A stretch of DNA of 47,524 bases from Gammaproteobacteria bacterium (GTDB lineage Bacteria; Pseudomonadota; Gammaproteobacteria; JAJPIJ01), in the NCBI GenBank assembly GCA_021324815.1, contig JAJPIJ010000010.1, positions 1 to 47,524 of the forward strand, in the 5' to 3' direction. Numbering within the stretch: position 1 is the stretch's first letter; each line of letters opens with the position of its first letter. Both the position numbers and the translations under genes were made by a program. This document shows positions 9,046 through 21,524 of this stretch, piece by piece. The notes below the pieces were generated by a model that did not search any database, had not been told where the DNA came from, and saw only the letters and a program-made list of their open reading frames with translations.

Positions 9046-9681
9046 ATGCGTCACGTTCCCGGCATCGTTTTACTGCTCATCACTCTCCCGGCCGCCGCCG
9101 GCAGGATCGACGTCGTCGGCCTGTTCAAGGACCGGGCGGTGGTGGAGATCGACGGCAGGACGGAGGTCCTCAAGGTGGGCGAGACGCGCCCCGACGGCAT
9201 CAGGCTCATCAGCGCCGACAGCAAGGAGGCGGTGATCGAGATCGACGGCAAACGGGCCACCTACCCGCTCGGCAGCCACAGCAGCATCCCGGCCATGACG
9301 GCCCCCAGGGGGACGATGGTGCAGATCGGGCCGGATTCGCAGGGCATGTATTTCGCCGACGGCACCATCAACGGCTACGCGGTGAGGTTCGTGGTGGACA
9401 CCGGGGCGACGACGCTGGCGTTGAACCGGCAGACCGCCAGGCGGCTGGGCATCGATTACCGGGTGGACGGCAAACCCGGCACCGCCCAGACCGCCTCCGG
9501 CATCGTCAGGGCCTACGGCGTGACGCTGAAGAAAGTCACCGTGGGCGACATCGCGCTGAACGACGTGGAGGCCATCGTCATCGACGGCGACAGCCCGTCG
9601 GAGCCGCTGTTGGGCAATTCCTTCCTCGGCCGCCTCGATATCAAGCGCAGCGACAAGATACTGCAGTTGATCAAAAAGTAA
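9046..9681 (+). CDS. Secreted retropepsin-like aspartic protease (clan AA, TIGR02281 type)
   Basis: A signal peptide (1-19, ending PAAAG) starts the 211-aa protein. A small beta-rich region (20-75) with IDGRTEVLKVGE and IDGKRATYPLG half-repeats resembles a type II secretion GspC-like fold. The protease domain begins near residue 95. It has a single catalytic D118-T-G-A motif in a FVVDTGATTLAL context, and LLGNSFL near the C-terminus matches the family's second conserved segment. One Asp-Thr-Gly per chain implies an active homodimer, as in retropepsins. It is probably periplasmic. The substrate is unknown. Its stop overlaps the convergent DUF6580 gene by 11 nt. Confidence 0.85.
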   Translation: MRHVPGIVLLLITLPAAAGRIDVVGLFKDRAVVEIDGRTEVLKVGETRPDGIRLISADSKEAVIEIDGKRATYPLGSHSSIPAMTAPRGTMVQIGPDSQGMYFADGTINGYAVRFVVDTGATTLALNRQTARRLGIDYRVDGKPGTAQTASGIVRAYGVTLKKVTVGDIALNDVEAIVIDGDSPSEPLLGNSFLGRLDIKRSDKILQLIKK

Positions 9682-20086: not shown

Positions 20087-20475
20087 TCGAGAATTTTTCC
20101 CAAGCCTTTATTTGACCCGGTCCAGCATGAAACTCATACATCATACTCCCTTCGCCGCAAGCGCCGGGTAAGCGGGTGGACGTATAATTATTTTATATTT
20201 ATTTACAATAAATTAACACTGATAATTAAAGTATATTATTATTTCATCGGCACACTTGGCGGCTCCATGACCCCCCGTGTCCACGCCGCCGTCCGGCGAC
20301 GGCGAATTCCGCCGCATCAGTCGAACCCGGATGGCGCCCGATAGACCATGGTTTCGGGGGCAAAAGGGGCTTTTCCAAAACCGTTAATTACGCTATTGTT
20401 GGCTTGGCGGCGTCCGACAGCTAGCCTATGTCTGGCGCCGCCCAAAGCAAAACAAACATCCTAGGAGGTTTCAAA
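20087..20475. promoter_or_regulatory. Divergent intergenic control region between amrS and the HvfA-like gene
   Basis: No gene is seen in these 389 nt. About 20183-20247 is strikingly AT-rich for this genome. On the minus strand TTGTAA (20203-20208), a 16-nt spacer and TATACG (20181-20186) could drive amrS. On the plus strand a weak TTTTCC-N17-TATTGT near 20370-20398 could serve the peptide gene. A perfect TAGGAGGT ribosome site (20462-20469) precedes ATG 20476. Confidence 0.4.
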
Positions 20476-20760
20476 ATGTTTAAAAAACTGACGACTGCAC
20501 TTGCAGTCACCCTGGTCGCAACCCCGGCCGCCTATGCCGCGAATCCCTTCTCCTCAACCGACCTGTCCACGGGTTACATGGTTGCCGAGAAAGGTCATGA
20601 CATGGCCGGCAACGAAGTGGAAATGCCTGCGGGCTTCACTTATGGCGGCGACCCGACGGGTGCCTATGCGGGTGGCAAGATTGGCACCGGCGCGAAGGAT
20701 CCGGCAGTGTGCGGCACCTTCTCCGAAGCCAAGTGCTCCATCACCTACGTCAAGAAGTAA
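20476..20760 (+). CDS. Small secreted peptide with HvfA-like N-terminal motif
   Basis: This is a 94-aa exported protein. The signal peptide MFKKLTTALAVTLVATPAAYA is cleaved before ANPF. The mature N-terminus NPFSSTDLSTGYMVAEKG closely resembles the conserved lead of HvfA-type low-complexity precursors (typically NPF...LSxGYMVA), which carry EGKCG repeats and are modified by DUF692 HvfB with HvfC. Those repeats are absent. The tail is Gly-rich and ends VCGTFSEAKCSITYVKK, whose two Cys and SEAKC could be a degenerate core. The strong ribosome site and terminator suggest a highly expressed single-gene transcript. No HvfB or HvfC is nearby. The metallophore link is inference; a structural or stress peptide is also possible. 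Confidence 0.85.
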   Translation: MFKKLTTALAVTLVATPAAYAANPFSSTDLSTGYMVAEKGHDMAGNEVEMPAGFTYGGDPTGAYAGGKIGTGAKDPAVCGTFSEAKCSITYVKK

Positions 20761-20819
20761 TCGTAGGTTCATAAAGAGCTTCACTGCTCGACAACAACAA
20801 CATCTCATTCATTCGAAAA

Positions 20820-20844
20820 CCCCGCGCAAGCGGGGTTTTTTTTT
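20820..20844 (+). terminator. Rho-independent terminator of the HvfA-like gene
   Basis: CCCCGC (20820-20825), loop GCAA, and GCGGGG (20830-20835) are followed by nine T residues (20836-20844). Four A residues before the stem would pair with the T run, making it bidirectional. Confidence 0.92.
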
Positions 20845-21038: not shown

Positions 21039-21524
21039 ATGCCACGAACACGCGCGGGTCTGTTGCTGTTTTTATATTGCGCCCCCCTTTGGGCGCAATG
21101 GCAGGTTGTTGACCCCACCAAGGAACTTCCCGCGTCCGCCGCCACTCGCAATACCAGTGGCGACGCACTGCGCATCTATCGGGACAAGGAGGGACGCGTA
21201 CATCTGCGGTTCCTCTTGCGCGCCGGATTCGACAGTCTGGCCGGCTGTCCCACGTTTCAGGTGGCCAGCGAGCCCGCCGAATATCAATCCTACGACGGCA
21301 CGGCCTGCACCACCGGCGATCACTGGGTTGAGTTCATTCTCGGACGCATCGAGGGCGGCACGCTGCATTCCGCGGCGCTGCACCGGCTGTTGAACGGCAA
21401 CAATGTCGCCTTTCGCTATGCCCTCAAGGATCATGGTTATGGCGAAACCGCCTTCGATCTCACCGGCTCCAAGCGTGCGGTCACGCGCATACTGGGCCGT
21501 TCAATCACCGTCACACCCGACTGA
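21039..21524 (+). CDS. Secreted hypothetical protein
   Basis: I do not recognise a family. The 161-aa product starts with a signal peptide (MPRTRAGLLLFLYCAPLWAQ). The mature part has an alternating beta-like pattern, with DALRIYRDKEGRVHLRFLLR and KRAVTRILGRSITV. It carries two Cys, in AGCPTF and TACTTG, that could form a disulfide. I prefer ATG 21039 over an in-frame TTG at 21015, since only the ATG puts the signal peptide at the front. The stop is 3 nt before the next gene, so it is the first gene of the acyltransferase-aat-bpt operon. It is likely periplasmic. Confidence 0.65.
   Translation: MPRTRAGLLLFLYCAPLWAQWQVVDPTKELPASAATRNTSGDALRIYRDKEGRVHLRFLLRAGFDSLAGCPTFQVASEPAEYQSYDGTACTTGDHWVEFILGRIEGGTLHSAALHRLLNGNNVAFRYALKDHGYGETAFDLTGSKRAVTRILGRSITVTPD

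Follow-up and report, generated by a model that had tools for sequence, protein, structure and literature searches.

A two-cysteine peptide family with an HvfA-type lead, and the possible maturation in trans of a stand-alone member

Can a small secreted peptide that begins like an HvfA precursor, but carries no EGKCG core and has no maturation genes beside it, still be the substrate of an MNIO enzyme? The question is raised by a 94-amino acid ORF at positions 20476-20760 (+ strand) of the window, by which we mean the whole stretch of 47,524 nucleotides analyzed here: an entire contig (C50) of a 2.37 Mb gammaproteobacterial genome (G000) that is 98% complete. MNIO enzymes produce unusual cysteine-derived groups, and the HvfB-type substrates catalogued at present are mainly EGKCG repeats, DUF2282, and 6/12-Cys peptides. 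An earlier reading of the sequence alone had noticed the lead and the missing core and had proposed a new class of peptide that borrows a distant HvfB. We confirm the observation, and the interpretation is partly supported.

The window gene and its lead

Read from its sequence, the ORF is a real gene (20476-20760, including the stop codon), with a dN/dS of 0.08 against its orthologue in the related genome G001. A ribosome binding site, AGGAGG (20463-20468, +), lies 7 bases 5' of the ATG, and an intrinsic terminator hairpin followed by a T run lies at 20815-20840 (+; -18.7 kcal/mol, z -3.3); a terminator scan overlooked this hairpin, which RNA folding reveals. Both features are as good as the sequence-only reading had held, and the AT-rich region that it described is found at 20160-20260, about 220 bases upstream of the gene (32% GC vs 65% for the window). 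The high expression that it expected from them found no backing; a promoter scan returned only a site at chance level. A conserved block, GGGGCTTTTCCAA..TTAATTACGCTATTGTTG (20366-20401, +), is a candidate promoter, common to the region upstream of the G001 orthologue and in part to that in genome G002 (loci L003 and L073).

The protein opens with a putative Sec-type signal peptide, MFKKLTTALAVTLVATPAAYA (20476-20538, +), of typical appearance by inspection and matched by a signal-plus-lead profile, followed by the lead NPFSSTDLSTGYMVA (residues 23-37; 20542-20586, +) and then by EKGHDMAGNEVEMPAGFTYGGDPTGAYAGGKIGTGAKDPAVCGTFSEAKCSITYVKK. A lead-only profile, trained on 14 canonical HvfA peptides (the 17 residues of mature lead in each), picks out the window peptide from a set of 1255 sequences with E=8e-9, well clear of the background, and the resemblance is therefore not a matter of chance; judged by this profile, the NPF..GYMVA segment is a true, homologous HvfA-type lead. 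Run against the entire genome, the signal-plus-lead profile gives exactly three matches: HvfA on contig C44, the window gene, and a paralogue on contig C9, itself a second orphan peptide and 79% identical to the window peptide over the matched region. The description of the gene as an orphan thus holds for its contig, where it is alone, and fails for the genome and beyond, where it has this paralogue and belongs to a family with a module of its own.

The peptide contains exactly two cysteines (Cys79 and Cys87, spaced C-x7-C). The EGKCG motif is absent from it, and it has no match to the NCBIfam models NF050137/NF050188; the NCBIfam EGKCG models do recognize the L041 hybrid and canonical HvfA. 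The window peptide and its family match nothing in Pfam or NCBIfam, and AlphaFold2, given the peptide with 26 homologues, returned no confident fold (pLDDT 45, pTM 0.20). The window copy does not lie upstream of an MNIO/DUF2063 partner, and there is no HvfB or HvfC anywhere on the contig.

Among the neighbors, a 161-residue secreted-looking protein (21039-21524, +) is conserved in G001 and has no Pfam or NCBIfam match. An AmmeMemoRadiSam radical SAM gene (TIGR04337; 18995-20086, -) adjoins the peptide gene. We considered a functional tie between the latter and the peptide and do not claim it: the two adjoin in the window genus and are about 4 kb apart in G002, G003, and L059, with differing arrangements and genes between.

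A two-cysteine module and its HvfB-HvfC partners

The better conserved half of the peptide, which the first reading missed, is residues 42-94 (20599-20757, +), a 53-residue C-terminal module of the form DMxGNxV..FTYGGD..YAxGKxxTGxKDPxVCGxFxxxxC[SG], defined by a profile and by an alignment of 26 homologues. Invariant in all 26 are D42, G45, V48, G57, G58, D59, Y64, G67, K68, T71, G72, K74, D75, P76, V78, C79, G80, F82, and C87. Both cysteines, as in MNIO-matured precursors, are candidate modified residues (Cys79 in KDPAVCGTF, codon 20710-20712; Cys87 in EAKCS, codon 20734-20736; both +). Coding selection is strong, with dN/dS of 0.03-0.15 across all pairs tested and 0.05-0.15 in orphan module peptides. 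Homologues keeping neither lead nor cysteine pair had been named in advance as evidence against the first reading; since the pair is invariant in the 26 members, none of them is of that kind. The lead is conserved in HvfA-type peptides and in many family members, and is lost in some that retain both cysteines.

When 84,980 species genomes were scanned with a sequence pattern, 31 module loci were retrieved, all from Pseudomonadota and from gammaproteobacterial MAGs where the title is more specific; we take the few titled Klebsiella pneumoniae to be mislabelled. The module is matched in 10 of 369 genomes drawn from the class, weakly and with interrupting stops in one of them. The family is apparently uncatalogued. 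We found no name for it in the MNIO-RiPP literature, and some members may stand unnamed in the supplement of PMC12452194, since that supplement is where the paper places hundreds of unnamed small signal-peptide ORFs found before MNIO genes.

In 17 loci from uncultured gammaproteobacteria, the module peptide lies directly upstream of hvfB-hvfC, and the module is its only Cys-bearing core; the lead there, where the start is present, takes the form NPFQMVEFG..V.VA. One further linked locus is cut by a contig end, two (L058 and L077) have EGKCG repeats fused to the two-Cys module upstream of HvfBC, and the remaining 11 of the 31 are unlinked within the flanks examined. Gene order is common to most linked loci, which are flanked by ThiG, TrmB, and other genes at one end and by a biotin-dependent carboxylase at the opposite end. 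In genome G094, for example, Pfam identifies PF05114, DUF2063, and NGO1945_C, and both proteins score above the NCBIfam equivalog cut-offs (HvfB 376.9 vs 360; HvfC 222.9 vs 142). The peptide thus belongs to a precursor class without EGKCG that has HvfB and HvfC beside it in many relatives.

The HvfBs of these 17 loci form one clade (support 100/98, and 100/100 for concatenated HvfB and HvfC). The residue following their catalytic ERD is E in 16 of the 17 and L in the other, unlike the F of 14 EGKCG-type HvfBs. The position after the catalytic Asp has been reported to affect substrate specificity: the corresponding FonB residue is proposed to be F250, which touches both neighbors of the modified Cys, Lys on the N-terminal side and Gly on the C-terminal side, and which is replaced by Asp in Cys-Lys enzymes (PMC13097082); we equate ERD-F with FonB D249-F250 from the motif alone. 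On the substrate side, the residue before the second cysteine is always Ser in genomes with an E-type HvfB; in genomes with F-type HvfB only it is Lys (the window genus, G069, and G303) or Val (L075/L076). This pattern, drawn from few lineages, fits enzyme and substrate having changed in step. In the HvfB tree, the HvfB encoded on C44 of the window genome is sister to the two-Cys clade (99/92), a placement that is unsupported once HvfC is added (48/77); we accordingly rejected a grouping of the window and hybrid HvfBCs with the two-Cys clade.

In the window genus the lead persists, as it does in two other orphans, L070 and L072; their genomes carry a linked two-Cys hvfBC at another locus (L049 and L069). 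Module peptides of G002, G003, and G123 lack the lead, and in these genomes we found no HvfA-type HvfB. G069 and G303 have an HvfB, yet contain two lead-less orphans each, including lipoprotein-like copies of the module. We therefore do not claim a strict two-way rule tying retention of the lead to an HvfA-type HvfB in the genome, since G069 and G303 break it and few independent lineages bear on it.

Two remnants lie in these genomes. In G123, a dead hvfB start, SAGLGLRRARPGP, is found directly 3' of the module gene (L051, just downstream of 5165); shuffled sequences score as well in 0/300 and 2/300 cases for two queries, and the module peptide retains the family synteny. In G003, a gene on contig C24 (L043, about 9370-9620) has a signal peptide and a NPFAAQDLKGGYMVA lead followed by unrelated sequence with no core, and is apparently a decayed HvfA-type precursor.

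Proposed maturation in trans and competing explanations

The window genome encodes three DUF692/MNIO proteins, on C15, C4, and C44, all off the window. C44 carries HvfB and HvfC along with an HvfA that contains EF-hands and EGKCG, and its HvfB is of the HvfA type, so that the distant HvfB postulated from the sequence does exist. C4 encodes an MNIO, a DUF2063 partner, and DoxX, adjoining Buf1- and Buf2-like precursors. C15 (L044, 7844-9493) encodes an MNIO and a DUF2063 partner with no precursor beside them, and it bears ERDD, the signature of Cys-Lys (Buf2) enzymes; similar precursor-less pairs occur in G001-G003. Stand-alone Buf2 precursors are present in G000 to G003 (e.g., G000:C14:19958-20203), and the C15 pair, going by its signature, probably serves them. 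With these precursors apart from MNIO genes, a second RiPP system looks unlinked in this genome family, and stand-alone precursors are described as common for bufferins in PMC12452194.

Since the peptide has no HvfB or HvfC beside it in this genome, it is probably finished by a distant copy of the enzyme or works without one. On balance, we lean toward the window gene encoding a stand-alone precursor of the two-Cys family, related to HvfA and matured in trans by an MNIO, with the roughly 53-residue module as its core in place of EGKCG repeats. The peptide would be synthesized in the cytosol, and its signal peptide and NPF lead would be recognized by the RRE-bearing partner HvfC and the MNIO HvfB from C44. 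HvfB would then oxidize Cys79 (V-C-G) and/or Cys87 (A-K-C-S), most likely to 5-thiooxazoles (-4 Da each), and Sec would export the peptide to act in the periplasm, most likely by binding metal (copper). The -4 Da chemistry of HvfBC and the part that the Sec signal peptide of HvfA plays in recognition by HvfBC have been described (PMC13419390).

Several lines of evidence suggest maturation in trans: the 17 loci with the module as sole Cys-bearing core upstream of HvfBC, together with the two hybrids; the dedicated HvfB clade with E or L for F and the matching Ser or Lys before the second cysteine; the position of the window HvfB as sister to that clade in the HvfB tree; and the retention of the lead in L070/L072 against its loss in G002, G003, and G123. 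By analogy, the Buf2 precursors of this genome family are likewise unlinked from MNIO genes, and FonBC modifies NVCGG and AKCGA contexts once, which resemble VCGTF and EAKCS of the window peptide. Several observations count against it. Lead-less peptides in genomes without an HvfA-type HvfB retain both cysteines under purifying selection, so the module may function without that enzyme, unless another MNIO serves it; G069 and G303 own an HvfB and still hold lead-less orphans; the C44 HvfB already has an EGKCG/EF-hand substrate of its own; and the sister placement fails with HvfC, while the covariation comes from few lineages.

The same observations lend substance to an explanation that we regard as plausible though not probable, namely that the peptide acts in the periplasm as a small protein without being modified, through a disulfide or two thiols, its NPF lead being a relic of HvfA-type ancestry. 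The cysteine pair and the module have outlasted lead and maturase in G002, G003, and G123, in the last of which the dead hvfB start lies downstream; orphans remain under selection; lead-less copies in G069 and G303 look like lipoproteins; and the module also serves as a C-terminal addition to EGKCG repeats, as EF-hands do. A relic lead is harder to reconcile with 17 loci in which the module alone bears cysteines beside a dedicated HvfBC, with the retention of the lead by orphans of the window genus and by L070/L072, and with its loss where the HvfA-type HvfB has been lost. Maturation in trans could also be the work of the precursor-less MNIO on C15 or of the one on C4, which we think improbable: pairs like that on C15 do occur in every one of the four family genomes with the orphan, but C15 has a Buf2-type ERDD and each such genome has a stand-alone Buf2 precursor, C4 adjoins precursors of its own, and the window lead is of the HvfA type. 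That an ordinary, unrelated secreted peptide resembles HvfA by accident is hardly credible, for although the motif is short and databases give no match, it is refuted by the lead-only score and by the same module beside hvfBC and fused to EGKCG repeats. We also consider it rather unlikely that the module defines a new class of MNIO product, with a modification and/or metal unlike those of the 5-thiooxazole copper captophorins; here the dedicated HvfBs, with their changed specificity residue, would act on the VCGxF....C pair, and another metal or redox task would fall to the product or, once the enzyme has been lost, to the module in unmodified form. In one genus, the gene of a module peptide stands immediately before that of a lanthanide methanol dehydrogenase.

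If its members are HvfB substrates, this compact family with its own HvfB clade would offer a simple test of how HvfB chooses cysteines (the residue following the catalytic Asp being F or E), and the copies that stand alone or lack the lead would probe maturation at a distance vs precursors that outlive their enzyme.

Relation to known precursors and genomic context

As described in PMC12452194, PMC13097082, and PMC13419390, the HvfA/Buf_EGKCG oxazolin/captophorin precursors share with the two-Cys family a signal peptide (putative in the window copy), an NPF..GYMVA-type lead, and, in relatives, the partners HvfB and HvfC, and two loci combine EGKCG repeats with the two-Cys module. The window copy differs in having its own module instead of those repeats and no HvfBC beside it. 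HvfA proteins with EF-hands, such as that on C44, follow the same plan of an HvfA lead and then an accessory C-terminal domain; here the accessory part is the two-Cys module, which in the window copy is the only core. The CxxxxC family, as far as PMC12452194 describes it, has in common a signal peptide (again putative in the window copy), few cysteines, a PME-type 1 partner, and a Lactamase_B_2 gene, which many two-Cys loci have at a distance of about 4 kb. That description sets it apart from the present peptides, which have two cysteines at C-x7-C and no CxxxxC motif, no DoxX match at 1e-8 in the module loci, and a lactamase gene several genes off, beyond the paper's 10-bp operon criterion. 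The stand-alone bufferin precursors Buf1/Buf2 reported there are likewise unlinked from MNIO genes and belong to a different precursor sequence family.

In two loci (L042, 5436-7721, on G069:C75; and L075, 4776-7060), the gene of a peptide composed of lead, Ala-rich linker, and module precedes, by about 50 bases, a gene for a lanthanide methanol dehydrogenase of the XoxF type (best PDB match 6dam), which a TonB receptor gene adjoins. Upstream of two-Cys operons (e.g., L062, L064, and L068), we further find a conserved promoter-like TAGACTT...TACCATC and, farther upstream, a shared GTAGCGATAGCGTTACGC element before a GC-rich terminator.
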